Program-made: the position numbers and the translations under genes
Shown: in pieces, positions 38,801 to 57,687 of the stretch
How positions within the stretch are numbered: the stretch's first letter is position 1
Layout: the number at the start of each line of letters is the position of its first letter
Notes under the pieces: model-generated
Seen by the model: only the letters and a program-made list of their open reading frames with translations
Database searches by the model: none
Told to the model about the DNA's origin: nothing
Source: Amia ocellicauda
Taxonomy: Eukaryota > Chordata > Actinopteri > Amiiformes > Amiidae
Direction: 5' to 3'
NCBI RefSeq assembly: GCF_036373705.1
Contig: NC_089851.1
Coordinates: forward strand, 58,664,850-58,728,849
DNA: 64,000 bases

Positions 38801-40952
38801 GATTGACAGTGGTCCGTGATCTGCTGTTATGCTACTTTGCTTCTGACCATTGGGGGAGCGATAGCAAGCAAGAGAGTTAGATGTCAAGAGTCATAGATAG
38901 ATAGATGGATGGATGGATGGACGGCAAGGCAAGCATCTGATTGACAGTGGTCCGTGATCTGCTGTTATGCTACTATGCTACTGACCATTGGGGGAGCGAT
39001 AGCAAGTAAGAGAGTTAGATATCGAGAGTCATTGATAGATAGATAGATAGATGGATGGTTGGACGGCAAGGCAAGCATCTGATTGACAGTGGTCCGTGAT
39101 CTGCTGTTATGCTACAATGCTACTGACCATTGGGGGAGCGATAGCAAGCAAGAGAGTTAGATATCAAGAGTCATAGATAGATAGATAGATAGATGGATGG
39201 ATGGACGGCAAGGCAAGCATCTGATTGACAGTGGTCCGTGATCTGCTGTTATGCTACAATGCTACTGACCATTGGGGGAGCGATAGCAAGCAAGAGAGTT
39301 AGATATCAAGAGTCATAGATAGATAGATAGATAGATGGATGGATGGACGGCAAGGCAAGCATCTGATTGACAGTGTTCCGTGATCTGCTGTTATGCTACT
39401 ATGCTACTGACCATTGGGGGAGCGATAGCAAGCAAGAGAGTTAGATAACAAGAGTCATAGATAGATAGATGGATGGATGGATGGACGGCAAGGCAAGCAT
39501 CTGATTGACAGTGGTCCGTGATCTGCTGTTATGCTACTATGCTACTGACCATTGGGGGAGCGATAGCAAGTAAGAGAGTTAGATATCGAGAGTCATTGAT
39601 AGATAGATAGATAGATGGATGGATGGACGGCAAGGCAAGCATCTGATTGACAGTGGTCCGTGATCTGCTGTTATGCTACAATGCTACTGACCATTGGGGG
39701 AGCGATAGCAAGCAAGAGAGTTAGATATCAAGAGTCATAGATAGATAGATAGATAGATGGATGGATGGACGGCAAGGCAAGCATCTGATTGACAGTGGTC
39801 CGTGATCTGCTGTTATGCTACAATGCTACTGACCATTGGGGGAGCGATAGCAAGCAAGAGAGTTAGATATCAAGAGTCATAGATAGATAGATAGATAGAT
39901 GGATGGATGGACGGCAAGGCAAGCATCTGATTGACAGTGGTCCGTGATCTGCTGTTATGATACTATGCTACTGACCATTGGGGGAGCGATAGCAAGCAAG
40001 AGAGTTAGATATCAAGAGTCATAGATAGATAGATGGATGGATGGATGGATGGACGGCAAGGCAAGCATCTGATTGACAGTGGTCCGTGATCTGCTGTTAT
40101 GCTACAATGCTACTGACCATTGGGGGAGCGATAGCAAGCAAGAGAGTTAGATATCAAGAGTCATAGATAGATAGATAGATAGATGGATGGATGGACGGCA
40201 AGGCAAGCATCTGATTGACAGTGGTCCGTGATCTGCTGTTATGCTACAATGCTACTGACCATTGGGGGAGCGATAGCAAGCAAGAGAGTTAGATATCAAG
40301 AGTCATAGATAGATAGATAGATAGATGGATGGATGGACGGCAAGGCAAGCATCTGATTGACAGTGGTCCGTGATCTGCTGTTATGCTACAATGCTACTGA
40401 CCATTGGGGGAGCGATAGCAAGCAAGAGAGTTAGATATCAAGAGTCATAGATAGATAGATAGATAGATGGATGGATGGACGGCAAGGCAAGCATCTGATT
40501 GACAGTGGTCCGTGATCTGCTGTTATGCTAAAATGCTACTGACCATTGGGGGAGCGATAGCAAGCAAGAGAGTTAGATATCAAGAGTCATAGATAGATAG
40601 ATAGATAGATGGATGGATGGACGGCAAGGCAAGCATCTGATTGACAGTGGTCCGTGATCTGCTGTTATGATACTATGCTACTGACCATTGGGGGAGCGAT
40701 AGCAAGCAAGAGAGTTAGATATCAAGAGTCATAGATAGATAGATGGATGGATGGATGGATGGACGGCAAGGCAAGCATCTGATTGACAGTGGTCCGTGAT
40801 CTGCTGTTATGCTACTTTGCTTCTGACCATTGGGGGAGCGATAGCAAGCAAGAGAGTTAGATATTGAGAGTCATAGATAGATGGATGGATGGATGGACGG
40901 CAAGGCAAGAACCTGATTGACAGCGGTCCGTGATCTGCTGTTATTCTACTAT
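2879..40952 (+). repeat. 142-bp satellite, main array with higher-order structure
   Basis: About 268 uninterrupted monomers, with lengths differing by multiples of 4 bp through GATA/GGAT slippage. I recognise these classes: A (CTACTATG, GCAAGTAAG, GAGTCATTGATAG), B (CTACAATG, ATATCAAG), C (ATGATACTATG, ATATCAAG, extra GGAT), D (CTACTTTGCTTCTG, ATGTCAAG), E (CTACTATG, GATAACAAG) and F (CTACTATG, ATATCAAG). A common order is F-C-D-A-B-E-A-B-B-(B)-C-D, cycling after 10-12 monomers, for example with F near 13,370, 14,910 and 16,590. Two D monomers often lie about 420 bp apart (7,461 and 7,883). No gene is seen anywhere in this interval. Confidence 0.97.
25200..30000 (+). repeat. tandem segmental duplication, 2,398-bp period
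   Basis: Three otherwise rare variants recur at exactly the same distance: GTTAAATGTC at 25,766 and 28,164, ATGATACTGA in an A monomer at 26,851 and 29,249, and CAAGTCAAGC at 27,227 and 29,625. Each pair is 2,398 bp apart, about 17 monomers. The monomer order also agrees from about 25.3 to 27.5 kb and from 27.7 to 29.9 kb. The boundaries given are approximate, because flanking monomers are near identical. Confidence 0.85.
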
Positions 40953-40974
40953 CAGCAGCAGCAGCGGCAGATTT

Positions 40975-41048
40975 GGCGCTGTGGCTTAGTTGGTTAAAGC
41001 ACCTGTCTAGTAAACAGGAGGTCCTGGGTTCAAATCCCAGCGGTGCCT
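40975..41048 (+). tRNA. trnT-AGU: tRNA-Thr (AGT), cassette copy 1
   Basis: A 74-nt cloverleaf. Acceptor GGCGCTG pairs with CGGTGCC with a U-G at pair 6 (the other copies have C-G there). D stem is GCTT/AAGC. Anticodon stem CCTGT/ACAGG encloses loop CTAGTAA, giving anticodon AGT. T arm is CTGGG-TTCAAAT-CCCAG. Box A TGGCTTAGTTGG and box B GGTTCAAATCC are intact. It closely resembles vertebrate tRNA-Thr(AGT). The first T run of four or more is weakly placed, at 41,106, almost 60 nt downstream. Confidence 0.95.
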
Positions 41049-41334
41049 TAGGCGGGCTTTCTGTGCTCCTTGCGAAGCTTGTGCTTCCGCTTTGTCGACC
41101 ATCAGTTTTAGCAAGATAGGCTTATCGTAAAGCCATCAGAGGACGTAATGAACCGGAAAGCCAACTGGACAGACGCCGGTTTGTAAAGAAGAACCAGAAC
41201 CCAAAGGACAAGCGCTACGGCCAACGTCCAATTCCCATTGCCGCCCCTGGACAGTCGCAACAGGGAGCTTGTTGCTCCCGTCAACCTTACGTTTTCACCT
41301 CTGTGTGCTTCCTTTGTTGCAGCCTGCATCCAGA

Positions 41335-41449
41335 TTTTGTTTTGTTTTGTTTTGTTTTGTTTTGTTTTGTTTTGTTTTGTTTTGTTTTGTTTTGTTTTGT
41401 TTTGTTTTGTTTTGTTTTGTTTTGTTTTGTTTTGTTTTGTTTTGTTTTT
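41335..41449 (+). repeat. (TTTTG)n microsatellite, cassette copy 1
   Basis: About 23 units of TTTTG between the two tRNA-Thr genes, ending at GCCTTACGCC. It creates long open frames (Phe/Cys/Val/Leu on plus, Lys/Gln/Asn on minus) that are artefacts of the five-base repeat. Confidence 0.97.
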
Positions 41450-41491
41450 GCCTTACGCCTGAGTGTAGGCACTGGGGAATGGGAGAGTCCT

Positions 41492-41565
41492 GGCACCGTG
41501 GCTTAGTTGGTCAAAGCGCCTGTCTTGTAAACAGGAAACCCTGGGTTCGACTCCCAGCAGTGCCT
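41492..41565 (+). tRNA. trnT-UGU: tRNA-Thr (TGT), cassette copy 1
   Basis: A 74-nt cloverleaf. Acceptor GGCACCG/CAGTGCC has a C-A mismatch at pair 6, D stem is GCTT/AAGC, anticodon stem CCTGT/ACAGG encloses loop CTTGTAA (anticodon TGT), and the T arm is CTGGG-TTCGACT-CCCAG. Box B GGTTCGACTCC is canonical. The C-A mismatch is present in all six copies, so it predates amplification. The first T run is TTTTT at 41,618, about 50 nt downstream. Confidence 0.93.
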
Positions 41566-41627
41566 TGGTTTATGTTGGCCTAGGCAATGGAAAGGAAGTT
41601 TCTAAACGCTCAATACATTTTTGCAAG

Positions 41628-41696
41628 ATGGCCGTCCACAGCAAGCAGCTTAAGGTTACTGTAGCCACAGTCTGGCAAGCTGTCCGCCAGAAGTAG
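41628..41696 (+). other. 22-codon open frame in cassette, doubtful
   Basis: An ATG in the context GCAAGATGGCC opens a 22-codon frame ending at TAG, and it is identical in all six cassettes. Identity is expected from recent amplification and is not evidence of selection. The AAGATGGCC start also resembles a YY1-type site. Listed only because it lies between the Thr(TGT) and Asn genes and would otherwise be missed. Confidence 0.1.
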
Positions 41697-41729
41697 AAAC
41701 AATAACAAGGGGCGGGGGGAAAAGTGGGC

Positions 41730-41803
41730 CACCCCTGGGTGGATTCGAACAACCATCCTTTTGGTTAACAGCCAAACGCGCTGACCGATTGCGCCACAGA
41801 GAC
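41730..41803 (-). tRNA. trnN-GUU: tRNA-Asn (GTT), cassette copy 1, damaged
   Basis: Minus-strand cloverleaf GTCTCTG-TG-GCGC..., with anticodon stem TTTGG/CCAAA and loop CTGTTAA (anticodon GTT). Compared with the intact copies it has CAGGGGT instead of CAGGGAC in the acceptor (U-G at pair 2 and G-U at pair 1), and T stem GGTTG instead of GGTGG, which breaks one pair and alters box B. A TTTT terminator begins only 6 nt beyond the discriminator (41,720-41,723), much better placed than for the Thr genes. Likely a decaying copy. Confidence 0.88.
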
Positions 41804-41903
41804 AGACAGAGGTGTTGTGGTTGCTGCAGTCGTGCAGTTCCTTGACAGTTGCCAAAAATCATTTCCAGCACACGATTTTCTTTGTCGTTGAATGCAACAT
41901 ACG

Positions 41904-41952
41904 TGACCATTGGGGGAGCGATAGCAAGCAAGAGAGTTAGATATCGAGAGTC

Positions 41953-42006
<54 letters not shown>

Positions 42007-44198
42007 GGATGGATGGACGGCAAGGCAAGCATCTGATTGACAGTGGTCCGTGATCTGCTGTTATGCTACTATGCTACTGACCATTGGGGGAGCGATAGCA
42101 AGTAAGAGAGTTAGATATCGAGAGTCATTGATAGATAGATAGATAGATGGATGGATGGATGGACGGCAAGGCAAGCATCTGATTGACAGTGGTCCGTGAT
42201 CTGCTGTTATGCTACTATGCTACTGACCATTGGGGGAGCGATAGCAAGCAAGAGAGTTAGATATCGAGAGTCATAGATAGATAGATAGATAGATGGATGG
42301 ATGGACGGCAAGGCAAGCATCTGATTGACATTGGTCCGTGATCTGCTGTTATGCTACAATGCTACTGACCATTGGGGGAGCGATAGCAAGCAAGAGAGTT
42401 AGATATCAAGAGTCATAGATAGATAGATAGATAGATGGATGGATGGACGGCAAGGCAAGCATCTGATTGACAGTGGTCCGTGATCTGCTGTTATGCTACT
42501 ATGCTACTGACCATTGGGGGAGCGATAGCAAGTAAGAGAGTTAGATATCGAGAGTCATTGATAGATAGATAGATAGATGGATGGATGGACGGCAAGGCAA
42601 GCATCTGATTGACAGTGGTCCGTGATCTGCTGTTATGCTACAATGCTACTGACCATTGGGGGAGCGATAGCAAGCAAGAGAGTTAGATATCAAGAGTCAT
42701 AGATAGATAGATAGATAGATGGATGGATGGACGGCAAGGCAAGCATCTGATTGACAGTGGTCCGTGATCTGCTGTTATGCTACAATGCTACTGACCATTG
42801 GGGGAGCGATAGCAAGCAAGAGAGTTAGATATCAAGAGTCATAGATAGATAGATAGATAGATGGATGGATGGACGGCAAGGCAAGCATCTGATTGACAGT
42901 GGTCCGTGATCTGCTGTTATGCTACTATGCTACTGACCATTGGGGGAGCGATAGCAAGCAAGAGAGTTAGATATCAAGAGTCATAGATAGATAGATAGAT
43001 AGATGGATGGATGGACGGCAAGGCAAGCATCTGATTGACAGTGGTCCGTGATCTGCTGTTATGCTACAATGCTACTGACCATTGGGGGAGCGATAGCAAG
43101 CAAGAGAGTTAGATATCAAGAGTCATAGATAGATAGATAGATAGATGGATGGATGGACGGCAAGGCAAGCATCTGATTGACAGTGGTCCGTGATCTGCTG
43201 TTATGATACTATGCTACTGACCATTGGGGGAGCGATAGCAAGCAAGAGAGTTAGATATCAAGAGTCATAGATAGATAGATGGATGGATGGATGGATGGAC
43301 GGCAAGGCAAGCATCTGATTGACAGTGGTCCGTGATCTGCTGTTATGCTACAATGCTACTGACCATTGGGGGAGCGATAGCAAGCAAGAGAGTTAGATAT
43401 CAAGAGTCATAGATAGATAGATAGATAGATGGATGGATGGACGGCAAGGCAAGCATCTGATTGACAGTGGTCCGTGATCTGCTGTTATGCTACAATGCTA
43501 CTGACCATTGGGGGAGCGATAGCAAGCAAGAGAGTTAGATATCAAGAGTCATAGATAGATAGATAGATAGATGGATGGATGGACGGCAAGGCAAGCATCT
43601 GATTGACAGTGGTCCGTGATCTGCTGTTATGCTACAATGCTACTGACCATTGGGGGAGCGATAGCAAGCAAGAGAGTTAGATATCAAGAGTCATAGATAG
43701 ATAGATAGATAGATGGATGGATGGACGGCAAGGCAAGCATCTGATTGACAGTGGTCCGTGATCTGCTGTTATGCTAAAATGCTACTGACCATTGGGGGAG
43801 CGATAGCAAGCAAGAGAGTTAGATATCAAGAGTCATAGATAGATAGATAGATAGATGGATGGATGGACGGCAAGGCAAGCATCTGATTGACAGTGGTCCG
43901 TGATCTGCTGTTATGATACTATGCTACTGACCATTGGGGGAGCGATAGCAAGCAAGAGAGTTAGATATCAAGAGTCATAGATAGATAGATGGATGGATGG
44001 ATGGATGGACGGCAAGGCAAGCATCTGATTGACAGTGGTCCGTGATCTGCTGTTATGCTACTTTGCTTCTGACCATTGGGGGAGCGATAGCAAGCAAGAG
44101 AGTTAGATATTGAGAGTCATAGATAGATGGATGGATGGATGGACGGCAAGGCAAGAACCTGATTGACAGCGGTCCGTGATCTGCTGTTATTCTACTAT
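41904..44198 (+). repeat. 142-bp satellite between cassettes 1 and 2
   Basis: About 16 monomers. It opens with a monomer having an expanded (GATA)n tract interrupted by one AAAT (about 41,956-42,006), as is usual just right of each cassette. Rare variants here reappear in neighbouring segments: GACATTGG at 42,327 and GCTAAAATG at 43,773. It ends with a D-type monomer carrying GATATTGAG and then a half monomer with CAAGAACCTGATTGACAGCGG leading into cassette 2. Confidence 0.97.
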
Positions 44199-44220
44199 CA
44201 GCAGCAGCAGCGGCAGATTT

Positions 44221-44294
44221 GGCGCCGTGGCTTAGTTGGTTAAAGCACCTGTCTAGTAAACAGGAGGTCCTGGGTTCAAATCCCAGCGGTGCCT
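44221..44294 (+). tRNA. trnT-AGU: tRNA-Thr (AGT), cassette copy 2
   Basis: Acceptor GGCGCCG/CGGTGCC is well paired (one G-U), anticodon loop is CTAGTAA, T arm CTGGG-TTCAAAT-CCCAG. No damage is visible. Same 74-nt structure as the matching gene in copies 4, 5 and 6. Confidence 0.96.
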
Positions 44295-44580
44295 TAGGCG
44301 GGCTTACTGTGCTCCTTGCGAAGCTTGTGCTTCCGCTTTGTCGACCATCAGTTTTAGCAAGATAGGCTTATCGTAAAGCCATCAGAGGACGTAATGAACC
44401 GGAAAGCCAACTGGACAGACGCCGGTTTGTAAAGAAGAACCAGAACCCAAAGGACAAGCGCTACGGCCAACGTCCAATTCCCATTGCCGCCCCTGGACAG
44501 TCGCAACAGGGAGCTTGTTGCTCCCGTCAACCTTACGTTTTCACCTCTGTGTGCTTCCTTTGTTGCAGCCTGCATCCAGA

Positions 44581-44650
44581 TTTTGTTTTGTTTTGTTTTG
44601 TTTTGTTTTGTTTTGTTTTGTTTTGTTTTGTTTTGTTTTGTTTTGTTTTG

Positions 44651-44681
<31 letters not shown>
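44581..44681 (+). repeat. (TTTTG)n microsatellite, cassette copy 2
   Basis: About 20 units, the shortest of the six tracts. Confidence 0.97.
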
Positions 44682-44723
44682 GCCTTACGCCTGAGTGTAG
44701 GCACTGGGGAATGGGAGAGTCCT

Positions 44724-44797
44724 GGCACCGTGGCTTAGTTGGTCAAAGCGCCTGTCTTGTAAACAGGAAACCCTGGGTTTGACTCCCAGCAGTGCCT
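44724..44797 (+). tRNA. trnT-UGU: tRNA-Thr (TGT), cassette copy 2, altered T loop
   Basis: Same 74-nt structure as the other copies except that the T loop reads TTTGACT instead of TTCGACT. This replaces the near-invariant C56, which pairs with G19 in tRNA tertiary folding and is a key base of box B. The copy is probably weakly transcribed or unstable. Confidence 0.88.
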
Positions 44798-44961
44798 TGG
44801 TTTATGTTGGCCTAGGCAATGGAAAGGAAGTTTCTAAACGCTCAATACATTTTTGCAAGATGGCCGTCCACAGCAAGCAGCTTAAGGTTACTGTAGCCAC
44901 AGTCTGGCAAGCTGTCCGCCAGAAGTAGAAACAATAACAAGGGGCGGGGGGAAAAGTGGGC

Positions 44962-45035
44962 CATCCCTGGGTGGATTCGAACCACCATCCTTTTGGTTAA
45001 CAGCCAAACGCGCTGACCGATTGCGCCACAGAGAC
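44962..45035 (-). tRNA. trnN-GUU: tRNA-Asn (GTT), cassette copy 2
   Basis: Anticodon GTT, T arm GGTGG-TTCGAAT-CCACC and box A TGGCGCAATCGG are intact. The acceptor 3' strand is CAGGGAT, giving G-U at pair 1 instead of G-C. A TTTT terminator lies 6 nt beyond the 3' end. Probably functional or nearly so. Confidence 0.94.
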
Positions 45036-45135
45036 AGACAGAGGTGTTGTGGTTGCTGCAGTCGTGCAGTTCCTTGACAGTTGCCAAAAATCATTTCCAG
45101 CACACGATTTTCTTTGTCGTTGAATGCAACATACG

Positions 45136-45184
45136 TGACCATTGGGGGAGCGATAGCAAGCAAGAGAGTTAGATATCGAGAGTC

Positions 45185-45222
<38 letters not shown>

Positions 45223-46838
45223 GGATGGATGGACGGCAAGGCAAGCATCTGATTGACAGTGGTCCGTGATCTGCTGTTATGCTACTATGCTACTGACCAT
45301 TGGGGGAGCGATAGCAAGTAAGAGAGTTAGATATCGAGAGTCATTGATAGATAGATAGATAGATGGATGGATGGATGGACGGCAAGGCAAGCATCTGATT
45401 GACAGTGGTCCGTGATCTGCTGTTATGCTACTATGCTACTGACCATTGGGGGAGCGATAGCAAGCAAGAGAGTTAGATATCGAGAGTCATAGATAGATAG
45501 ATAGATAGATGGATGGATGGACGGCAAGGCAAGCATCTGATTGACATTGGTCCGTGATCTGCTGTTATGCTACAATGCTACTGACCATTGGGGGAGCGAT
45601 AGCAAGCAAGAGAGTTAGATATCAAGAGTCATAGATAGATAGATAGATAGATGGATGGATGGACGGCAAGGCAAGCATCTGATTGACAGTGGTCCGTGAT
45701 CTGCTGTTATGCTACTATGCTACTGACCATTGGGGGAGCGATATCAAGCAAGAGAGTTAGATATCAAGAGTCATAGATAGATAGATAGATGGATGGATGG
45801 ATGGACGGCAAGGCAAGCATCTGATTGACAGTGGTCCGTGATCTGCTGTTATGCTACTATGCTACTGACCATTGGGGGAGCGATAGCAAGCAAGAGAGTT
45901 AGATAACAAGAGTCATAGATAGATAGATAGATAGATGTTTGGATGGACGGCAAGGCAAGCATCTGATTGACAGTGGTCCGTGATCTGCTGTTATGCTACA
46001 ATGCTACTGACCATTGGGGGAGCGATAGCAAGCAAGAGAGTTAGATATCAAGAGTCATAGATAGATAGATAGATAGATGGATGGATGGACGGCAAGGCAA
46101 GCATCTGATTGACAGTGGTCCGTGATCTGCTGTTATGCTACTATGCTACTGACCATTGGGGGAGCGATAGCAAGCAAGAGAGTTAGATAACAAGAGTCAT
46201 AGATTGATAGATGGATGGATGGATGGACGGCAAGGCAAGCATCTGATTGACAGTGGTCCGTGATCTGCTGTTATGCTACTATGCTACTGACCATTGGGGG
46301 AGCGATAGCAAGTAAGAGAGTTAGATATCGAGAGTCATTGATAGATAGATAGATAGATGGATGGATGGACGGCAAGGCAAGCATCTGATTGACAGTGGTC
46401 CGTGATCTGCTGTTATGCTACAATGCTACTGACCATTGGGGGAGCGATAGCAAGCAAGAGAGTTAGATATCAAGAGTCATAGATAGATAGATAGATAGAT
46501 GGATGGATGGACGGCAAGGCAAGCATCTGATTGACAGTGGTCCGTGATCTGCTGTTATGCTACTGACCATTGGGGGAGCGATAGCAAGCAAGAGAGTTAG
46601 ATATCAAGAGTCATAGATAGATAGATGGATGGATGGATGGATGGACGGCAAGGCAAGCATCTGATTGACAGTGGTCCGTGATCTGCTGTTATGCTACTTT
46701 GCTTCTGACCATTGGGGGAGCGATAGCAAGCAAGAGAGTTAGATATTGAGAGTCATAGATAGATGGATGGATGGATGGATGGACGGCAAGGCAAGAACCT
46801 GATTGACAGCGGTCCGTGATCTGCTGTTATTCTACTAT
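45136..46838 (+). repeat. 142-bp satellite between cassettes 2 and 3
   Basis: 1,703 bp, about 12 monomers, matching one higher-order repeat. It includes an expanded GATA tract right after cassette 2, the GACATTGG variant at 45,543, a monomer with GATGTTTGG near 45,935, and one monomer at about 46,556 that has lost 8 bp by collapse of the internal TATGCTAC tandem. The left flank of cassette 3 again shows GATATTGAG and GAACCTG. Confidence 0.97.
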
Positions 46839-46860
46839 CAGCAGCAGCAGCGGCAGATTT

Positions 46861-46934
46861 GGCGCCGTGGCTTAGTTGGTTAAAGCACCTGTCTAGTAAA
46901 CTGGAGGTCCTGGGTTCAAATCCCAGCGGTGCCT
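46861..46934 (+). tRNA. trnT-AGU: tRNA-Thr (AGT), cassette copy 3, anticodon-stem mismatch
   Basis: As the other copies except that the 3' anticodon stem reads ACTGG instead of ACAGG, giving a T-T mismatch in the middle of the five-pair stem. Acceptor, D and T arms and the anticodon AGT are intact. Confidence 0.9.
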
Positions 46935-47220
46935 TAGGCGGGCTTTCTGTGCTCCTTGCGAAGCTTGTGCTTCCGCTTTGTCGACCATCAGTTTTAGCAA
47001 GATAGGCTTATCGTAAAGCCATCAGAGGACGTAATGAACCGGAAAGCCAACTGGACAGACGCCGGTTTGTAAAGAAGAACCAGAACCCAAAGGACACGCG
47101 CTACGGCCAACGTCCAATTCCCATTGCCGCCCCTGGACAGTTGCAACAGGGAGCTTGTTGCTCCCGTCAACCTTACGTTTTCACCTCTGTGTGCTTCCTT
47201 TGTTGCAGTCTGCATCCAGA

Positions 47221-47310
47221 TTTTGTTTTGTTTTGTTTTGTTTTGTTTTGTTTTGTTTTGTTTTGTTTTGTTTTGTTTTGTTTTGTTTTGTTTTGTTTTG
47301 TTTTGTTTTG

Positions 47311-47341
<31 letters not shown>
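47221..47341 (+). repeat. (TTTTG)n microsatellite, cassette copy 3
   Basis: About 24 units followed by TTTTTTGCCTTACG. Confidence 0.97.
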
Positions 47342-47383
47342 GCCTTACGCCTGAGTGTAGGCACTGGGGAATGGGAGAGTCCT

Positions 47384-47457
47384 GGCACCGTGGCTTAGTT
47401 GGTCAAAGCGCCTGTCTTGTAAACAGGAAACCCTGGGTTCGACTCCCAGCAGTGCCT
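47384..47457 (+). tRNA. trnT-UGU: tRNA-Thr (TGT), cassette copy 3
   Basis: Identical to copy 1: box B GGTTCGACTCC, anticodon loop CTTGTAA, and the inherited C-A mismatch at acceptor pair 6. Confidence 0.93.
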
Positions 47458-47621
47458 TGGTTTATGTTGGCCTAGGCAATGGAAAGGAAGTTTCTAAACG
47501 CTCAATACATTTTTGCAAGATGGCCGTCCACAGCAAGCAGCTTAAGGTTACTGTAGCCACAGTCTGGCAAGCTGTCCGCCAGAAGTAGAAACAATAACAA
47601 GGGGCGGGGGGAAAAGTGGGC

Positions 47622-47695
47622 CGTCCCTGGGTGGATTCGAACCACCATCCTTTTGGTTAACAGCCAAACGCGCTGACCGATTGCGCCACAGAGAC
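47622..47695 (-). tRNA. trnN-GUU: tRNA-Asn (GTT), cassette copy 3, canonical
   Basis: Acceptor GTCTCTG/CAGGGAC is fully paired apart from one G-U, T arm is GGTGG-TTCGAAT-CCACC, anticodon GTT, discriminator G. Box A TGGCGCAATCGG and box B GGTTCGAATCC are consensus, and TTTT starts 6 nt downstream. This closely matches vertebrate tRNA-Asn(GTT), so it is one of the best candidates in the array for a working gene. Confidence 0.96.
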
Positions 47696-47795
47696 AGACA
47701 GAGGTGTTGTGGTTGCTGCAGTCGTGCAGTTCCTTGACAGTTGCCAAAAATCATTTCCAGCACACGATTTTCTTTGTCGTTGAATGCAACATACG

Positions 47796-47844
47796 TGACC
47801 ATTGGGGGAGCGATAGCAAGCAAGAGAGTTAGATATCGAGAGTC

Positions 47845-47890
<46 letters not shown>

Positions 47891-50800
47891 GGATGGACGG
47901 CAAGGCAAGCATCTGATTGACAGTGTTCCGTGATCTGCTGTTATGCTACTATGCTACTGACCATTGGGGGAGCGATAGCAAGCAAGAGAGTTAGATAACA
48001 AGAGTCATAGATAGATAGATGGATGGATGGATGGACGGCAAGGCAAGCATCTGATTGACAGTGGTCCGTGATCTGCTGTTATGCTACTATGCTACTGACC
48101 ATTGGGGGAGCGATAGCAAGTAAGAGAGTTAGATATCGAGAGTCATTGATAGATAGATAGATAGATGGATGGATGGACGGCAAGGCAAGCATCTGATTGA
48201 CAGTGGTCCGTGATCTGCTGTTATGCTACAATGCTACTGACCATTGGGGGAGCGATAGCAAGCAAGAGAGTTAGATATCAAGAGTCATAGATAGATAGAT
48301 AGATAGATGGATGGATGGACGGCAAGGCAAGCATCTGATTGACAGTGGTCCGTGATCTGCTGTTATGCTACAATGCTACTGACCATTGGGGGAGCGATAG
48401 CAAGCAAGAGAGTTAGATATCAAGAGTCATAGATAGATAGATAGATAGATGGATGGACGGCAAGGCAAGCATCTGATTGACAGTGGTCCGTGATCTGCTG
48501 TTATGCTACAATGCTACTGACCATTGGGGGAGCGATAGCAAGCAAGAGAGTTAGATATCAAGAGTCATAGATAGATAGATAGATAGATGGATGGATGGAC
48601 GGCAAGGCAAGCATCTGATTGACAGTGGTCCGTGATCTGCTGTTATGATACTATGCTACTGACCATTGGGGGAGCGATAGCAAGCAAGAGAGTTAGATAT
48701 CAAGAGTCATAGATAGATAGATGGATGGATGGATGGATGTACGGCAAGGCAAGCATCTGATTGACAGTGGTCCGTGATCTGCTGTTATGCTACTTTGCTT
48801 CTGACCATTGGGGGAGCGATAGCAAGCAAGAGAGTTAGATATCAAGAGTCATAGATAGATAGATAGATAGATGGATGGACGGCAAGGCAAGCATCTGATT
48901 GACAGTGGTCCGTGATCTGCTGTTATGCTACAATGCTACTGACCATTGGGGGAGCGATAGCAAGCAAGAGAGTTAGATATCAAGAGTCATAGATAGATAG
49001 ATAGATAGATGGATGGATGGACGGCAAGGCAAGCATCTGATTGACAGTGGTCCGTGATCTGCTGTTATGATACTATGCTACTGACCATTGGGGGAGCGAT
49101 AGCAAGCAAGAGAGTTAGATATCAAGAGTCATAGATAGATAGATGGATGGATGGATGGATGTACGGCAAGGCAAGCATCTGATTGACAGTGGTCCGTGAT
49201 CTGCTGTTATGCTACTTTGCTTCTGACCATTGGGGGAGCGATAGCAAGCAAGAGAGTTAGATGTCAAGAGTCATAGATAGATAGATGGATGGATGGATGG
49301 ACGGCAAGGCAAGCATCTGATTGACAGTGGTCCGTGATCTGCTGTTATGCTACTATGCTACTGACCATTGGGGGAGCGATAGCAAGCAAGAGAGTTAGAT
49401 AACAAGAGTCATAGATAGATAGATGGATGGATGGATGGACGGCAAGGCAAGCATCTGATTGACAGTGGTCCGTGATCTGCTGTTATGCTACTATGCTACT
49501 GACCATTGGGGGAGCGATAGCAAGTAAGAGAGTTAGATATCGAGAGTCATTGATAGATAGATAGATAGATGGATGGATGGACGGCAAGGCAAGCATCTGA
49601 TTGACAGTGGTCCGTGATCTGCTGTTATGCTACAATGCTACTGACCATTGGGGGAGCGATATCAAGCAAGAGAGTTAGATATCAAGAGTCATAGATAGAT
49701 AGATAGATAGATGGATGGATGGACGGCAAGGCAAGCATCTGATTGACAGTGGTCCGTGATCTGCTGTTATGCTACAATGCTACTGACCATTGGGGGAGCG
49801 ATAGCAAGCAAGAGAGTTAGATATCAAGAGTCATAGATAGATAGATAGATAGATGGATGGATGGACGGCAAGGCAAGCATCTGATTGACAGTGGTCCGTG
49901 ATCTGCTGTTATGCTACAATGCTACTGACCATTGGGGGAGCGATAGCAAGCAAGAGAGTTAGATATCAAGAGTCATAGATAGATAGATAGATAGATGGAT
50001 GGATGGACGGCAAGGCAAGCATCTGATTGACAGTGGTCCGTGATCTGCTGTTATGCTACAATGCTACTGACCATTGGGGGAGCGATAGCAAGCAAGAGAG
50101 TTAGATATCAAGAGTCATAGATAGATAGATAGATAGATGGATGGATGGACGGCAAGGCAAGCATCTGATTGACAGTGGTCCGTGATCTGCTGTTATGATA
50201 CTATGCTACTGACCATTGGGGGAGCGATAGCAAGCAAGAGAGTTAGATATCAAGAGTCATAGATAGATAGATGGATGGATGGATGGATGGACGGCAAGGC
50301 AAGCATCTGATTGACAGTGGTCCGTGATCTGCTGTTATGCTACAATGCTACTGACCATTGGGGGAGCGATAGCAAGCAAGAGAGTTAGATATCAAGAGTC
50401 ATAGATAGATAGATAGATAGATGGATGGATGGACGGCAAGGCAAGCATCTGATTGACAGTGGTCCGTGATCTGCTGTTATGCTACAATGCTACTGACCAT
50501 TGGGGGAGCGATAGCAAGCAAGAGAGTTAGATATCAAGAGTCATAGATAGATAGATAGATAGATGGATGGATGGACGGCAAGGCAAGCATCTGATTGACA
50601 GTGGTCCGTGATCTGCTGTTATGCTACAATGCTACTGACCATTGGGGGAGCGATAGCAAGCAAGAGAGTTAGATATCAAGAGTCATAGATAGATAGATAG
50701 ATAGATGGATGGATGGACGGCAAGGCAAGCATCTGATTGACAGTGGTCCGTGATCTGCTGTTATGCTACAATGCTACTGACCATTGGGGGAGCGATAGCA

Positions 50801-51190
50801 AGCAAGAGAGTTAGATATCAAGAGTCATAGATAGATAGATAGATAGATGGATGGATGGACGGCAAGGCAAGCATCTGATTGACAGTGGTCCGTGATCTGC
50901 TGTTATGATACTATGCTACTGACCATTGGGGGAGCGATAGCAAGCAAGAGAGTTAGATATCAAGAGTCATAGATAGATAGATGGATGGATGGATGGATGG
51001 ACGGCAAGGCAAGCATCTGATTGACAGTGGTCCGTGATCTGCTGTTATGCTACTTTGCTTCTGACCATTGGGGGAGCGATAGCAAGCAAGAGAGTTAGAT
51101 ATTGAGAGTCATAGATAGATGGATGGATGGATGGACGGCAAGGCAAGAACCTGATTGACAGCGGTCCGTGATCTGCTGTTATTCTACTAT
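47796..51190 (+). repeat. 142-bp satellite between cassettes 3 and 4
   Basis: 3,395 bp, about 24 monomers, twice the length of the usual 12-monomer spacing. After an expanded GATA tract it reads roughly E-A-B-B-B-C-D'-B-C-D, then E-A-B-B-B-B-C-B-B-B-B-C-D into cassette 4. D' (about 48,790) combines the D-type TTTGCTTCTG with the B/C-type ATATCAAG. GGATGTACGG variants occur near 48,735 and 49,158. Confidence 0.97.
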
Positions 51191-51212
51191 CAGCAGCAGC
51201 AGCGGCAGATTT

Positions 51213-51286
51213 GGCGCCGTGGCTTAGTTGGTTAAAGCACCTGTCTAGTAAACAGGAGGTCCTGGGTTCAAATCCCAGCGGTGCCT
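51213..51286 (+). tRNA. trnT-AGU: tRNA-Thr (AGT), cassette copy 4
   Basis: Intact 74-nt structure, with acceptor GGCGCCG/CGGTGCC, anticodon loop CTAGTAA and box B GGTTCAAATCC. Confidence 0.96.
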
Positions 51287-51572
51287 TAGGCGGGCTTACT
51301 GTGCTCCTTGCGAAGCTTGTGCTTCCGCTTTGTCGACCATCAGTTTTAGCAAGATAGGCTTATCGTAAAGCCATCAGAGGACGTAATGAACCGGAAAGCC
51401 AACTGGACAGACGCCGGTTTGTAAAGAAGAACCAGAACCCAAAGGACAAGCGCTACGGCCAACGTCCAATTCCCATTGCCGCCCCTGGACAGTCGCAACA
51501 GGGAGCTTGTTGCTCCCGTCAACCTTACGTTTTCACCTCTGTGTGCTTCCTTTGTTGCAGCCTGCATCCAGA

Positions 51573-51657
51573 TTTTGTTTTGTTTTGTTTTGTTTTGTTT
51601 TGTTTTGTTTTGTTTTGTTTTGTTTTGTTTTGTTTTGTTTTGTTTTGTTTTGTTTTG

Positions 51658-51688
<31 letters not shown>
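51573..51688 (+). repeat. (TTTTG)n microsatellite, cassette copy 4
   Basis: About 23 units of TTTTG. In copies 2 and 4 the tract length joins the minus-strand repeat frame to the 73-aa cassette frame, showing that those longer frames depend only on repeat length. Confidence 0.97.
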
Positions 51689-51730
51689 GCCTTACGCCTG
51701 AGTGTAGGCACTGGGGAATGGGAGAGTCCT

Positions 51731-51804
51731 GGCACCGTGGCTTAGTTGGTCAAAGCGCCTGTCTTGTAAACAGGAAACCCTGGGTTCGACTCCCAGCAGT
51801 GCCT
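51731..51804 (+). tRNA. trnT-UGU: tRNA-Thr (TGT), cassette copy 4
   Basis: Same sequence as copy 1, with box A TGGCTTAGTTGG, box B GGTTCGACTCC and anticodon TGT. Confidence 0.93.
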
Positions 51805-51968
51805 TGGTTTATGTTGGCCTAGGCAATGGAAAGGAAGTTTCTAAACGCTCAATACATTTTTGCAAGATGGCCGTCCACAGCAAGCAGCTTAAGGTTACTG
51901 TAGCCACAGTCTGGCAAGCTGTCCGCCAGAAGTAGAAACAATAACAAGGGGCGGGGGGAAAAGTGGGC

Positions 51969-52042
51969 CGTCCCTGGGTGGATTCGAACCACCATCCTTT
52001 TGGTTAACAGCCAAACGCGCTGACCGATTGCGCCACAGAGAC
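51969..52042 (-). tRNA. trnN-GUU: tRNA-Asn (GTT), cassette copy 4, canonical
   Basis: Same canonical sequence as copy 3 (CAGGGAC acceptor strand, intact T arm), with the nearby TTTT terminator. Confidence 0.96.
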
Positions 52043-52142
52043 AGACAGAGGTGTTGTGGTTGCTGCAGTCGTGCAGTTCCTTGACAGTTGCCAAAAATCA
52101 TTTCCAGCACACGATTTTCTTTGTCGTTGAATGCAACATACG

Positions 52143-52191
52143 TGACCATTGGGGGAGCGATAGCAAGCAAGAGAGTTAGATATCGAGAGTC

Positions 52192-52245
<54 letters not shown>

Positions 52246-53853
52246 GGATGGACGGCAAGGCAAGCATCTGATTGACAGTGGTCCGTGATCTGCTGTTATG
52301 CTACTATGCTACTGACCATTGGGGGAGCGATAGCAAGCAAGAGAGTTAGATAACAAGAGTCATAGATAGATAGATGGATGGATGGATGGACGGAAAGGCA
52401 AGCATCTGATTGACAGTGGTCCGTGATCTGCTGTTATGCTACTATGCTACTGACCATTGGGGGAGCGATAGCAAGTAAGAGAGTTAGATATCGAGAGTCA
52501 TTGATAGATAGATAGATAGATGGATGGATGGACGGCAAGGCAAGCATCTGATTGACAGTGGTCCGTGATCTGCTGTTATGCTACAATGCTACTGACCATT
52601 GGGGGAGCGATAGCAAGCAAGAGAGTTAGATATCAAGAGTCATAGATAGATAGATAGATAGATGGATGGATGGACGGCAAGGCAAGCATCTGATTGACAG
52701 TGGTCCGTGATCTGCTGTTATGCTACAATGCTACTGACCATTGGGGGAGCGATAGCAAGCAAGAGAGTTAGATATCAAGAGTCATAGATAGATAGATAGA
52801 TAGATGGATGGACGGCAAGGCAAGCATCTGATTGACAGTGGTCCGTGATCTGCTGTTATGCTACAATGCTACTGACCATTGGGGGAGCGATAGCAAGCAA
52901 GAGAGTTAGATATCAAGAGTCATAGATAGATAGATAGATAGATGGATGGATGGACGGCAAGGCAAGCATCTGATTGACAGTGGTCCGTGATCTGCTGTTA
53001 TGATACTATGCTACTGACCATTGGGGGAGCGATAGCAAGCAAGAGAGTTAGATATCAAGAGTCATAGATAGATAGATGGATGGATGGATGGATGTACGGC
53101 AAGGCAAGCATCTGATTGGCAGTGGTCCGTGATCTGCTGTTATGCTACTTTGCTTCTGACCATTGGGGGAGCGATAGCAAGCAAGAGAGTTAGATATCAA
53201 GAGTCATAGATAGATAGATAGATAGATGGATGGACGGCAAGGCAAGCATCTGATTGACAGTGGTCCGTGATCTGCTGTTATGCTACAATGCTACTGACCA
53301 TTGGGGGAGCGATAGCAAGCAAGAGAGTTAGATATCAAGAGTCATAGATAGATAGATAGATAGATGGATGGATGGACGGCAAGGCAAGCATCTGATTGAC
53401 AGTGGTCCGTGATCTGCTGTTATGATACTATGCTACTGACCATTGGGGGAGCGATAGCAAGCAAGAGAGTTAGATATCAAGAGTCATAGATAGATAGATG
53501 GATGGATGGATGGATGTACGGCAAGGCAAGCATCTGATTGACAGTGGTCCGTGATCTGCTGTTATGCTACTTTGCTTCTGACCATTGGGGGAGCGATAGC
53601 AAGCAAGAGAGTTAGATGTCAAGAGTCATAGATAGATAGATGGATGGATGGATGGACGGCAAGGCAAGCATCTGATTGACAGTGGTCCGTGATCTGCTGT
53701 TATGCTACTATGCTACTGACCATTGGGGGAGCGATAGCAAGCAAGAGAGTTAGATATCAAGAGTCATAGATAGATAGATAGATAGATGGATGGATGGACG
53801 GCAAGGCAAGCATCTGATTGACAGCGGTCCGTGATCTGCTGTTATTCTACTAT
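52143..53853 (+). repeat. 142-bp satellite between cassettes 4 and 5
   Basis: 1,711 bp, about 12 monomers. Its opening monomers repeat the series right of cassette 3 (E-A-B-B-B-C-D'-B-C-D), including the short GGATGG block near 52,803 and GGATGTACGG near 53,090 and 53,512. The cassette and its downstream satellite were therefore copied together. Unlike the other left flanks, it ends with an ordinary F monomer and a half monomer reading GCATCTGATTGACAGCGG. Confidence 0.97.
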
Positions 53854-53875
53854 CAGCAGCAGCAGCGGCAGATTT

Positions 53876-53949
53876 GGCGCCGTGGCTTAGTTGGTTAAAG
53901 CACCTGTCTAGTAAACAGGAGGTCCTGGGTTCAAATCCCAGCGGTGCCT
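53876..53949 (+). tRNA. trnT-AGU: tRNA-Thr (AGT), cassette copy 5
   Basis: Intact. Same sequence as the matching gene in copies 2, 4 and 6. Confidence 0.96.
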
Positions 53950-54235
53950 TAGGCGGGCTTACTGTGCTCCTTGCGAAGCTTGTGCTTCCGCTTTGTCGAC
54001 CATCAGTTTTAGCAAGATAGGCTTATCGTAAAGCCATCAGAGGACGTAATGAACCGGAAAGCCAACTGGACAGACGCCGGTTTGTAAAGAAGAACCAGAA
54101 CCCAAAGGACAAGCGCTACGGCCAACGTCCAATTCCCATTGCCGCCCCTGGACAGTCGCAACAGGGAGCTTGTTGCTCCCGTCAACCTTACGTTTTCACC
54201 TCTGTGTGCTTCCTTTGTTGCAGCCTGCATCCAGA

Positions 54236-54325
54236 TTTTGTTTTGTTTTGTTTTGTTTTGTTTTGTTTTGTTTTGTTTTGTTTTGTTTTGTTTTGTTTTG
54301 TTTTGTTTTGTTTTGTTTTGTTTTG

Positions 54326-54356
<31 letters not shown>
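54236..54356 (+). repeat. (TTTTG)n microsatellite, cassette copy 5
   Basis: About 24 units of TTTTG. Confidence 0.97.
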
Positions 54357-54398
54357 GCCTTACACCTGAGTGTAGGCACTGGGGAATGGGAGAGTCCT

Positions 54399-54472
54399 GG
54401 CACCGTGGCTTAGTTGGTCAAAGCGCCTGTCTTGTAAACAGGAAACCCTGGGTTCGACTCCCAGCAGTGCCT
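54399..54472 (+). tRNA. trnT-UGU: tRNA-Thr (TGT), cassette copy 5
   Basis: Same as copy 1, with anticodon TGT, canonical box B and the inherited acceptor C-A mismatch. Confidence 0.93.
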
Positions 54473-54636
54473 TGGTTTATGTTGGCCTAGGCAATGGAAA
54501 GGAAGTTTCTAAACGCTCAATACATTTTTGCAAGATGGCCGTCCACAGCAAGCAGCTTAAGGTTACTGTAGCCACAGTCTGGCAAGCTGTCCGCCAGAAG
54601 TAGAAACAATAACAAGGGGCGGGGGGAAAAGTGGGC

Positions 54637-54710
54637 CATCCCTGGGTGGATCCGAACCACCATCCTTTTGGTTAACAGCCAAACACGCTGACCGATTGCA
54701 CCACAGAGAC
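54637..54710 (-). tRNA. trnN-GUU: tRNA-Asn (GTT), cassette copy 5, probable pseudogene
   Basis: Anticodon GTT is kept, but the D stem has become GTGC/GCGT (two wobble pairs, box A altered to TGGTGCAATCGG). The T loop reads TTCGGAT, replacing the near-invariant A58, and the acceptor 3' strand is CAGGGAT. The loss of A58 and the box changes make this the most degraded Asn copy, though the fold is still recognisable. Confidence 0.85.
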
Positions 54711-54806
54711 AGAGGTGTTGAGGTTGCTGCAGTCGTGCAGTTCCTTGACAGTTGCCAAAAATCATTTCCAGCACACGATTTTCTTTGTTGTTGAATGCAA
54801 CATACG

Positions 54807-54855
54807 TGACCATTGGGGGAGCGATAGCAAGCAAGAGAGTTAGATATCGAGAGTC

Positions 54856-54897
<42 letters not shown>

Positions 54898-56651
54898 GGA
54901 TGGACGGCAAGGCAAGCATCTGATTGACAGTGGTCCGTGATCTGCTGTTATGCTACTATGCTACTGACCATTGGGGGAGCGATAGCAAGTAAGAGAGTTA
55001 GATATCGAGAGTCATTGATAGATAGATAGATAGATGGATGGATGGACGGCAAGGCAAGCATCTGATTGACAGTGGTCCGTGATCTGCTGTTATGCTACAA
55101 TGCTACTGACCATTGGGGGAGCGATAGCAAGCAAGAGAGTTAGATATCAAGAGTCATAGATAGATAGATGGATGGATGGATGGATGGACGGCAAGGCAAG
55201 CATCTGATTGACAGTGGTCCGTGATCTGCTGTTATGCTACTTTGCTTCTGACCATTGGGGGAGCGATAGCAAGCAAGAGAGTTAGATGTCAAGAGTCATA
55301 GATAGATAGATGGATGGATGGATGGATGGACGGCAAGGCAAGCATCTGATTGACAGTGGTCCGTGATCTCCTGTTATGCTACTTTGCTTCTGACCATTGG
55401 GGGAGCGATAGCAAGCAAGAGAGTTAGATGTCAAGAGTCATAGATAGATAGATGGATGGATGGATGGACGGCAAGGCAAGCATCTGATTGACAGTGGTCC
55501 GTGATCTGCTGTTATGCTACTATGCTACTGACCATTGGGGGAGCGATAGCAAGTAAGAGAGTTAGATATCGAGAGTCATTGATAGATAGATAGATAGATG
55601 GATGGATGGACGGCAAGGCAAGCATCTGATTGACAGTGGTCCGTGATCTGCTGTTATGCTACAATGCTACTGACCATTGGGGGAGCGATAGCAAGCAAGA
55701 GAGTTAGATATCAAGAGTCATAGATAGATAGATAGATAGATGGATGGATGGACGGCAAGGCAAGCATCTGATTGACAGTGGTCCGTGATCTGCTGTTATG
55801 ATACTATGCTACTGACCATTGGGGGAGCGATAGCAAGCAAGAGAGTTAGATATCAAGAGTCATAGATAGATAGATGGATGGATGGATGGATGGATGGACG
55901 GCAAGGCAAGCATCTGATTGACAGTGGTCCGTGATCTGCTGTTATGCTACTTTGCTTCTGACCATTGGGGGAGCGATAGCAAGCAAGAGAGTTAGATATT
56001 GAGAGTCATAGATAGATGGATGGATGGATGGACGGCAAGGCAAGCATCTGATTGACAGTGGTCCGTGATCTGCTGTTATGCTACTATGCTACTGACCATT
56101 GGGGGAGCGATAGCAAGTAAGAGAGTTAGATATCGAGAGTCATTGATAGATAGATAGATAGATGGATGGATGGACGGCAAGGCAAGCATCTGATTGACAG
56201 TGGTCCGTGATCTGCTGTTATGCTACAATGCTACTGACCATTGGGGGAGCGATAGCAAGCAAGAGAGTTAGATATCAAGAGTCATAGATAGATAGATAGA
56301 TAGATGGATGGATGGACGGCAAGGCAAGCATCTGATTGACAGTGGTCCGTGATCTGCTGTTATGATACTATGCTACTGACCATTGGGGGAGCGATAGCAA
56401 GCAAGAGAGTTAGATATCAAGAGTCATAGATAGATAGATGGATGGATGGATGGATGGATGGACGGCAAGGCAAGCATCTGATTGACAGTGGTCCGTGATC
56501 TGCTGTTATGCTACTTTGCTTCTGACCATTGGGGGAGCGATAGCAAGCAAGAGAATTAGATATTGAGAGTCATAGATAGATGGATGGATGGATGGACGGC
56601 AAGGCAAGAACCTGATTGACAGCGGTCCGTGATCTGCTGTTATTCTACTAT
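54807..56651 (+). repeat. 142-bp satellite between cassettes 5 and 6
   Basis: 1,845 bp, about 13 monomers. It includes a D monomer at about 55,950-56,010 with the cassette-flank variant GATATTGAG that is followed not by a cassette but by an ordinary A monomer, apparently a recombinant left flank that lost its cassette. Further copies of the A-B-C-D series then lead to the standard left flank of cassette 6. Confidence 0.97.
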
Positions 56652-56673
56652 CAGCAGCAGCAGCGGCAGATTT

Positions 56674-56747
56674 GGCGCCGTGGCTTAGTTGGTTAAAGCA
56701 CCTGTCTAGTAAACAGGAGGTCCTGGGTTCAAATCCCAGCGGTGCCT
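56674..56747 (+). tRNA. trnT-AGU: tRNA-Thr (AGT), cassette copy 6
   Basis: Intact 74-nt structure. The downstream T run is TTTTT (56,805-56,809) instead of TTTT, still almost 60 nt from the gene end. Confidence 0.96.
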
Positions 56748-57032
56748 TAGGCGGGCTTACTGTGCTCCTTGCGAAGCTTGTGCTTCCGCTTTGTCGACCA
56801 TCAGTTTTTGCTAGATAGGCTTATCGTAAAGCCATCAGAGGACGTAATGAACCGGAAAGCCAACTGGACAGACGCCGGTTTGTAAAGAAGAACCAGAACC
56901 CAAAGGACAAGCGCTACGGCCAACGTCCAATTCCCATTGCCGCCCCTGGACAGTCGCAACAGGGAGCTTGTTGCTCCCGTCAACCTTACGTTTTCACCTC
57001 TGTGTGCTTCCTTTGTTGCAGCCTGCATCCAG

Positions 57033-57153
57033 ATTTTGTTTTGTTTTGTTTTGTTTTGTTTTGTTTTGTTTTGTTTTGTTTTGTTTTGTTTTGTTTTGTT
57101 TTGTTTTGTTTTGTTTTGTTTTGTTTTGTTTTGTTTTGTTTTGTTTTGTTTTG

Positions 57154-57184
<31 letters not shown>
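57033..57184 (+). repeat. (TTTTG)n microsatellite, cassette copy 6
   Basis: About 30 units, the longest of the six tracts. Confidence 0.97.
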
Positions 57185-57226
57185 GCCTTACGCCTGAGTG
57201 TAGGCACTGGGGAATGGGAGAGTCCT

Positions 57227-57300
57227 GGCACCGTGGCTTAGTTGGTCAAAGCGCCTGTCTTGTAAACAGGAAACCCTGGGTTCGACTCCCAGCAGTGCCT
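57227..57300 (+). tRNA. trnT-UGU: tRNA-Thr (TGT), cassette copy 6
   Basis: Same as copy 1, with anticodon loop CTTGTAA and box B GGTTCGACTCC. Confidence 0.93.
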
Positions 57301-57464
57301 TGGTTTATGTTGGCCTAGGCAATGGAAAGGAAGTTTCTAAACGCTCAATACATTTTTGCAAGATGGCCGTCCACAGCAAGCAGCTTAAGGTTACTGTAGC
57401 CACAGTCTGGCAAGCTGTCCGCCAGAAGTAGAAACAATAACAAGGGGCGGGGGGAAAAGTGGGC

Positions 57465-57538
57465 CGTCCCTGGGTGGATTCGAACCACCATCCTTTTGGT
57501 TAACAGCCAAACGCGCTGACCGATTGCGCCACAGAGAC
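57465..57538 (-). tRNA. trnN-GUU: tRNA-Asn (GTT), cassette copy 6, canonical
   Basis: Same canonical sequence as copies 3 and 4, with the TTTT terminator 6 nt beyond the 3' end. Confidence 0.96.
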
Positions 57539-57638
57539 AGACAGAGGTGTTGTGGTTGCTGCAGTCGTGCAGTTCCTTGACAGTTGCCAAAAATCATTTC
57601 CAGCACACGATTTTCTTTGTCGTTGAATTCAACATACG

Positions 57639-57687
57639 TGACCATTGGGGGAGCGATAGCAAGCAAGAGAGTTAGATATCGAGAGTC

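Follow-up and report, generated by a model that had tools for sequence, protein, structure and literature searches.

Six tRNA gene cassettes in a satellite array

The window examined here is a 64,000-nucleotide stretch of the Amia ocellicauda genome (988,188,214 bases in 385 contigs) that covers positions 58,664,850-58,728,849 of a 63.57-Mb contig, C2, and most of it is a 142-bp satellite array split by six cassettes of three transfer RNA (tRNA) genes each. The array occupies 1..59895 on the forward strand and reaches the left window edge, with the first copy of a 24-base satellite anchor at position 98. Tandem Repeats Finder gave a period of 142 bp with 413.5 copies and 86% matches over 1563-59896, and the anchor occurs 382 times in the window at a modal spacing of 142 bp, followed by 138 bp. 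With a short monomer repeated head to tail over such a length, the left 59.9 kb of the window is satellite DNA, and six gaps between anchors, of 1066-1116 bp each, contain the cassettes.

Genes were called with ARAGORN and with the Rfam model RF00005 (cut-off 29 bits). ARAGORN found 18 tRNA genes between 40975 and 57539, arranged as six trios of Thr(AGT) and Thr(TGT) on the forward strand and Asn(GTT) on the reverse strand, and RF00005 recovered all 18 at 57.2-73.1 bits over model positions 1-71. Given this match over the whole model, and the promoter boxes and stem pairs seen in the 40 cassettes compared below, they are taken to be nuclear tRNA genes and not a tRNA-derived SINE. Cassette 1 (40953..41903) carries Thr(AGT) at 40975-41048, Thr(TGT) at 41492-41565 and Asn(GTT) at 41730-41803, and the same genes follow in the same order and on the same strands in cassette 2 (44199..45135; genes at 44221-44294, 44724-44797 and 44962-45035), cassette 3 (46839..47795; 46861-46934, 47384-47457 and 47622-47695), cassette 4 (51191..52142; 51213-51286, 51731-51804 and 51969-52042), cassette 5 (53854..54810; 53876-53949, 54399-54472 and 54637-54710, the last scoring 58.4 bits) and cassette 6 (56652..57638; 56674-56747, 57227-57300 and 57465-57538). 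All six cassettes lie on the forward strand; the ends of cassettes 2-6 were set by analogy with cassette 1, and the genes are those of ARAGORN and Rfam.

Both junctions with the satellite, ...CTACTAT/CAGCAGC on the left and ...CATACG/TGACCATTGG on the right, fall at an identical satellite phase in the six cassettes. An original prediction, made from the sequence alone, had described six blocks of this trio in one orientation, 0.94-0.99 kb long and set at one point of a 142-bp satellite, and had proposed a tRNA gene search of the window; the calls and junctions above bear it out on each of these points. A (TTTTG)n repeat within the cassettes (22 units at 41335..41444, forward strand, in cassette 1) has 22, 19, 23, 22, 23 and 29 units in cassettes 1-6, and since these counts differ, the six are distinct copies. 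Their spacing is irregular, with steps of 3246, 2640, 4352, 2663 and 2798 bp from one Thr(AGT) gene to the next. The leading 40.9 kb of the window is all satellite with no tRNA gene called by ARAGORN, and the final cassette stops about 2.3 kb short of the array's right edge. We ruled out one regular higher-order unit for the window, as monomer similarity is nearly flat by lag and the spacing irregular. Only the three tRNAs of cassette 1 reach Rfam family cut-offs, with no other RNA gene found in it. Three peptides tried for the 286-bp spacer that separates the two Thr genes matched no Pfam family, and a protein-coding origin for it was rejected.

Copy number and location in the genome

To count cassettes in the assembly we used a 23-base tag from the first spacer, which with 2 mismatches allowed gave 598 matches genome-wide (174 on the forward and 424 on the reverse strand), and a 32-base sequence across the right junction, which gave 635 at up to 3 mismatches (181 and 454). 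Reversed or control sequences gave no match for either, so that chance is excluded. A 32-base core of the satellite matched at 19,093 sites with no more than 2 mismatches (6,619 and 12,474; control 0), amounting to about 2.7 Mb of satellite if every core match represents 142 bp. The matches listed, 100 for each of the three, all lie on C2, those of the tag being exact and spanning 51.06-55.18 Mb. A search with the whole cassette returned 640 candidates, of which 40 were scored, all on C2 at 53.5-59.3 Mb, and in all 30 best-scoring loci satellite flanks the cassette on both sides. As far as the matches listed go, then, the cassettes are confined to C2, where hundreds of copies share one chromosome domain in blocks that change strand along the contig.

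These counts speak to whether the cassette is bound to its satellite. Among the 40 scored of 640 candidates, and among the 100 matches listed for each of tag and junction, the same cassette was not seen widely dispersed without satellite, a pattern that would have spoken against a joint amplification. Sampling turned up exceptions to the linkage, namely a full cassette at 52.61 Mb with satellite on one side only, a relic at 51.06 Mb with a mere scrap of satellite and a satellite-free form of the trio on another contig, C26; these are described below.

A probable single capture followed by co-amplification

The monomers next to the cassettes carry variants of their own, as seen in the monomer adjoining cassette 1 (40821..40952, forward strand), which holds the variants that mark pre-cassette monomers. 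GACAGCGGTCC precedes all six window cassettes and is absent elsewhere in the window, GTTATTCTAC precedes all six and occurs in one other place, and GCAAGAACCTGATTG precedes five of the six and occurs nowhere else in the window. Beyond the window, GTTATTC stands ahead of all 36 left junctions matched in the 30 loci, a count in which overlapping loci entered some junctions twice. Since the cassettes have these variants in common, cassette and neighbouring monomer must have been copied together. The predicted amplification of the trio with its satellite is upheld by these variants, by the 635 junction matches and by the satellite on both sides of the 30 loci, and we conclude that the Thr-Thr-Asn cluster was almost certainly captured once and then co-amplified with the satellite.

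Spacing differs by block. One exact junction follows the next after 1.0-7.2 kb in the block at 51.39-51.42 Mb, after about 1.55 kb in most cases at 52.06-52.08 Mb and after 2.6-3.2 kb at 53.53-53.55 Mb, the last two being examples of local higher-order units, and the Thr(AGT) genes of the window are 2.6-4.4 kb apart; in the three blocks outside the window, cassettes with a changed junction would escape this measure. Unequal exchange in register would explain both the block-specific spacing and the strand switches. In the sequence of events that we propose, the 142-bp satellite on C2 would have taken up a Thr-Thr-Asn tRNA cluster in one event, after which unequal exchange among monomers, the presumed mechanism, would have multiplied satellite and cassette jointly. 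The outcome is some 600 satellite-linked cassettes, those listed spanning about 8 Mb, which would make up one part of a tRNA gene bank whose copies are nearly interchangeable and not individually maintained.

Two subfamilies that differ in anticodon

The comparison set consisted of 41 cassettes less one zero-length string (54,643,324), leaving 40, which are mostly the best-scoring copies and not a random sample; six more copies later brought it to 46. The 40 comprise 32 full cassettes (AGT, TGT, Asn) and eight 5'-truncated ones (CGT, Asn) from 51.42 and 52.07 Mb, in which the first Thr gene is missing along with part of the first spacer, while the second Thr gene reads CGT. Four further truncated CGT cassettes lie at 57.37 Mb. 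With the 51.06-Mb relic kept apart, the full and truncated types are separated by ten fixed differences in the part compared, the anticodon among them.

Exact 27-base anticodon loops number 188 for AGT, 199 for TGT and 190 for CGT genome-wide. Among the 100 matches listed for each, CGT loops fall at 51.39-52.16 and 57.37-57.48 Mb, with three singles at 53.02-53.16 Mb, and TGT loops at 51.06-51.33 and 52.57-56.71 Mb. One could imagine that satellite turnover sets and re-tunes the Thr/Asn tRNA reserve, by deleting AGT, exchanging TGT for CGT and spreading the new version into blocks of its own, though we think this unlikely. If the array copies do feed the egg, repeat dynamics would shape which Thr codons can be read before the embryo's own genome wakes.

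Other tRNA repeats on C2

Further tRNA genes lie in the same domain. The full cassette at 52.61 Mb is bordered by satellite on the Asn side only. Its Thr side faces a tRNA stretch, present in two copies and partly masked, with genes for Leu(CAG) and Asp(GTC) and a last one that is Ser-like, which ARAGORN calls Ala(AGC) on what is by eye a Ser body. This arrangement is as expected at the edge of an ancestral cluster. The 51.06-Mb relic differs from the full type by about 8% in tRNA and spacer alike, and the stretch beside it, with Pro(AGG) and Leu(CAG) called by ARAGORN, resembles the 52.61-Mb stretch by eye. A 587-593-bp tandem repeat at 58.2 Mb contains a gene that is Pro-like by eye, called Leu(gag) by ARAGORN and under the Rfam cut-off; in its copies (sample positions 2156-3994) the anticodon loop looks, by eye, altered beside the anticodon. 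Three 4-kb samples at 53.0, 55.6 and 56.25 Mb held satellite and no tRNA genes. With Thr and Asn genes in hundreds and Leu(CAG), Asp(GTC), Ser-like and Pro-like genes also present, the best reading of the C2 domain is that of a satellite-borne tRNA bank with several isotypes. Next to the arrays there is transposon-like sequence and repeated protein-coding sequence, as judged by eye from the open frames and the DNA.

Copies of the trio outside the satellite

We also searched for Thr(AGT) and Asn genes of the common vertebrate form (for Thr(AGT) with up to 1 mismatch). Thr(AGT) was found in 29 places, 23 on contig C26 (3.98-4.15 Mb), five on C20 and one on C2 (60.3 Mb), and Asn in 40, 33 on C26, five on C20, one on C7 and one on C2 (46.3 Mb). 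Two 7-kb samples of C26 contain Thr(AGT), Thr(CGT) and a convergent Asn gene in the order and orientation of the C2 trio, in units mostly of 1.67-1.68 kb, with one step of 1.44 kb and one of 2.28 kb, and with one Thr(AGT) gene broken. The satellite anchor is absent from the 14 kb of C26 sampled, where only the GATA/GATG-rich stretch of the satellite and the flank of that stretch have a counterpart. The resemblance to the C2 cassette takes in the tRNA genes, pieces of them and at most about 33 bp beyond, the spacers being mostly unrelated. The trio was thus amplified on C26 without the satellite, which shows that its amplification does not depend on the satellite.

On C20, Thr and Asn are arranged head to head, and both the Thr(AGT) and the Asn genes differ from the C2 array forms. 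The array thus has isodecoders distinct from those of isolated copies, Thr AGGTCC...TTCAAATCC (with TGT and CGT forms besides) and Asn CCAAAAGGATGG. Two minor features of C26 may be added. One Thr(CGT) copy (sample L044, 3040-3113) reads Lys(CTT), apparently through a change of one base in the anticodon, the body being that of a Thr gene. Between the genes lies a 244-bp minisatellite (e.g., sample L044, 359-1106) that starts with the 5' part of a Thr tRNA gene, as though a tRNA gene were giving rise to a new satellite.

Gene integrity and the possible role of the array

We lean towards reading the array as a tRNA gene bank built by satellite hitchhiking, with pure hitchhiking as a close rival. 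The condition of the genes bears on both. The A box TGGCTTAGTTGG is found in all 32 Thr(AGT) genes of the full cassettes, and all stem pairs are standard in 18/32 Thr(AGT) and 28/32 Asn genes. Intact copies are probably transcribable by RNA polymerase III (Pol III).

Several observations weigh against the bank reading. In all 40 cassettes the position-2 Thr gene is mismatched at 6:68 (C:A or C:T), and all eight Asn genes of the truncated type show a G:G mismatch together with the B box GGTTTGA. In all six window cassettes the two Thr genes meet no T4 terminator before +58 and +53, and the Asn gene meets one at +7. Segregating sites in tRNA genes and spacers, respectively, are 24/222 and 48/622 in the full type (p 0.16), 11/148 and 9/439 in the truncated type (p 0.006) and 11/227 and 21/795 on C26 (p 0.13), where five of seven units were complete and used. 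The pooled odds ratio of tRNA to spacer variation is 1.84 (p 0.0014), in a count that treats linked, related copies as independent and excludes (TTTTG)n from the C2 spacers; with CpG sites removed, on C2 only, it is 1.68 (p 0.067). As the tRNA genes vary no less than the spacers, individual copies look unconstrained. Nucleotide diversity in the full set is 0.020 for Thr(AGT) and 0.014 for Asn, at or above the spacers (0.003-0.014; short 5' flank 0.028), and 0.005 for Thr(TGT), inside the spacer range. Variants at CpG sites are in excess (27/88 vs 45/756 non-CpG in the full type, 9/56 vs 11/531 in the truncated type), an excess that germ-line methylation of the region would produce. Of the 21 FISNA (NLR) matches, obtained from 27 candidates that were all scored and found in none of 14 control genomes, not one is on C2, and the 47 scored 5S ribosomal RNA (rRNA) matches, out of 47,274 candidates, lie on C8 and smaller contigs, with none on C2.

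The pattern of stem variants is of a different kind. Taking the majority base as ancestral, an assumption made in the stem, box and variant analyses alike, 22 variants strike an intact stem pair, 13 of which keep a standard pair and nine of which break it. Among the 16 transitions in intact pairs, 13 keep pairing (two-sided p 0.02 against one half). On the RNA-like strand, C-to-T changes outnumber G-to-A changes by 15 to 6 (hand count, p 0.08). The pattern points weakly to constraint or to C-to-T mutation linked to transcription.

If hitchhiking were all there is, the cassette would be a passenger of a self-driven satellite expansion, its tRNA copies would decay and the group would have no function. 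Variable sites that are no fewer in tRNA genes than in spacers in three arrays, stem defects fixed in the compared copies and the CpG excess are what such decay would produce, and the common junction is consistent with one accident. What this account leaves over is the separate, satellite-free amplification of the trio on C26, the further tRNA sets in the same C2 domain and the stem-pair transitions, with their weak hint of constraint or of a change that accompanies transcription, and we therefore doubt it, while taking it seriously. The double amplification, on C2 and C26, and the multi-isotype neighbourhood make us lean to a tRNA bank. The hitchhiking that had been offered at the outset as one explanation is upheld for the way in which the trio spread, and the lack of constraint speaks for it as well.

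The other explanation given then was that regularly spaced Pol III promoters may punctuate the heterochromatin of the satellite. TFIIIC-bound tRNA genes would then partition it as at fission-yeast centromeres, where tRNA genes are likely boundaries (PMC6538654). Internal promoter boxes are indeed retained in most of the compared copies. The regularity did not hold up, however, given the irregular spacing, the 40.9 kb of cassette-free array and the position of the cassettes in the interior, the last ending some 2.3 kb before the array does on the right. A scan of one cassette and two monomers for CTCF-like cores gave no good match (2 mismatches in 13 at best), and we consider chromatin punctuation very unlikely. 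Less probable still is that the assembler duplicated or mis-joined one cassette. Such repeats are difficult to assemble and the strand switches between blocks might arouse suspicion, but the length of (TTTTG)n, single bases and the spacing vary from copy to copy, and the two subfamilies occupy mainly separate blocks.

Returning to the tRNA bank, the copies as a group would most likely supply tRNA under extreme demand, above all in oocytes, and be silent or minor elsewhere. The analogy is with the oocyte and somatic tRNA gene families of Xenopus, which are cited together with very large newt tRNA families in PMC3565088, and with zebrafish chromosome 4 (Chr4), where one block is described as containing the majority of tRNA genes along with those for maternal 5S and small nuclear RNAs (PMC11075544). 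The isodecoders present in zebrafish eggs are reported to derive from highly repetitive regions, with Thr-AGT, TGT and CGT among the switching sets (PMC11417395), and later isodecoders from scattered genes (PMC11417395, PMC11075544). On this analogy an oocyte-type tRNA supply role, with the array as a source of Thr and Asn tRNA for germ line or egg, is plausible, and we put it forward tentatively. As far as these two zebrafish reports were available, Chr4 and the C2 domain are alike in concentrating very many tRNA genes within a repetitive part of a single chromosome arm. They differ in that the Amia trio lies inside one 142-bp satellite at one phase, and in the 21 FISNA matches and the 47 scored 5S matches, which as noted are off C2; FISNA genes accompany a bank of the Chr4 type and do not define it. 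The very many loose 5S candidates, at C8 7.4-9.8 Mb and on smaller contigs, point to a large expansion elsewhere in the genome.

Comparison with described tRNA repeats

Clustered high-copy tRNA genes link C2 to the Xenopus and newt families, for which a satellite-embedded Thr-Thr-Asn trio is not described in the accessible part of the source. The human tRNA variable number tandem repeat at 1q23.3 (PMC4041453) is likewise a tandem tRNA-containing unit of variable copy number, though its 7.3-kb unit is GC-rich and binds CTCF, alleles have 9-43 units and the abstract names no satellite. Closer in kind are the satellites of Harttia armoured catfish (PMC11955569), complex units with tRNA genes or tRNA-derived sequence; these are mosaics with parts of short and long interspersed nuclear elements, and an ordered trio in a simple short-monomer satellite is not described in the portion of that article available. 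Clusters account for 65% of tRNA genes and pseudogenes in zebrafish and 87% in stickleback (PMC2888827), a survey that gives counts and pair types and, in its available part, does not mention a satellite host. One further fish case, known from part of its source, resembles C2 in having tandem tRNA gene arrays, located close to a chromosome end, for which that part gives no composition of the unit.

The trio in a satellite had been put forward as undescribed. Among the top papers listed for tRNA banks and fish satellites, in a search that left most subscription papers outside, no title, opening of an abstract or passage showed this trio inside a short-monomer satellite. Fish satellites with tRNA genes (PMC11955569) and the zebrafish Chr4 banks have been published, so that less is new than was first supposed. 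As far as the literature searched goes, tRNA banks and tRNA-bearing fish satellites are known, and the Thr-Thr-Asn trio in a short-monomer satellite is new. It offers a countable case of a tRNA set riding a satellite, with one junction and two subfamilies that differ in anticodon, and the satellite-free amplification on C26 serves as an internal control in the same genome. It thereby becomes testable whether selection for egg supply maintains the tRNA banks of fish or repeat turnover alone does so, and whether there is any constraint on single copies within them.

Features beyond the array

CCCTAA telomere-type repeats (59896..59938, forward strand) begin where the satellite breaks off mid-monomer, and a further block lies at 60410-60442; both interstitial blocks sit about 4.8 Mb inside the contig end. 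A U6-like sequence at 62725-62828 on the reverse strand scores 32.9 bits, under the Rfam cut-off of 44, and is perhaps a relic. An intron-containing tRNA gene lies at 62196-62286 on the forward strand (Rfam 59.4 bits, no isotype from ARAGORN), and its anticodon, GTA by eye, would make it a Tyr gene.

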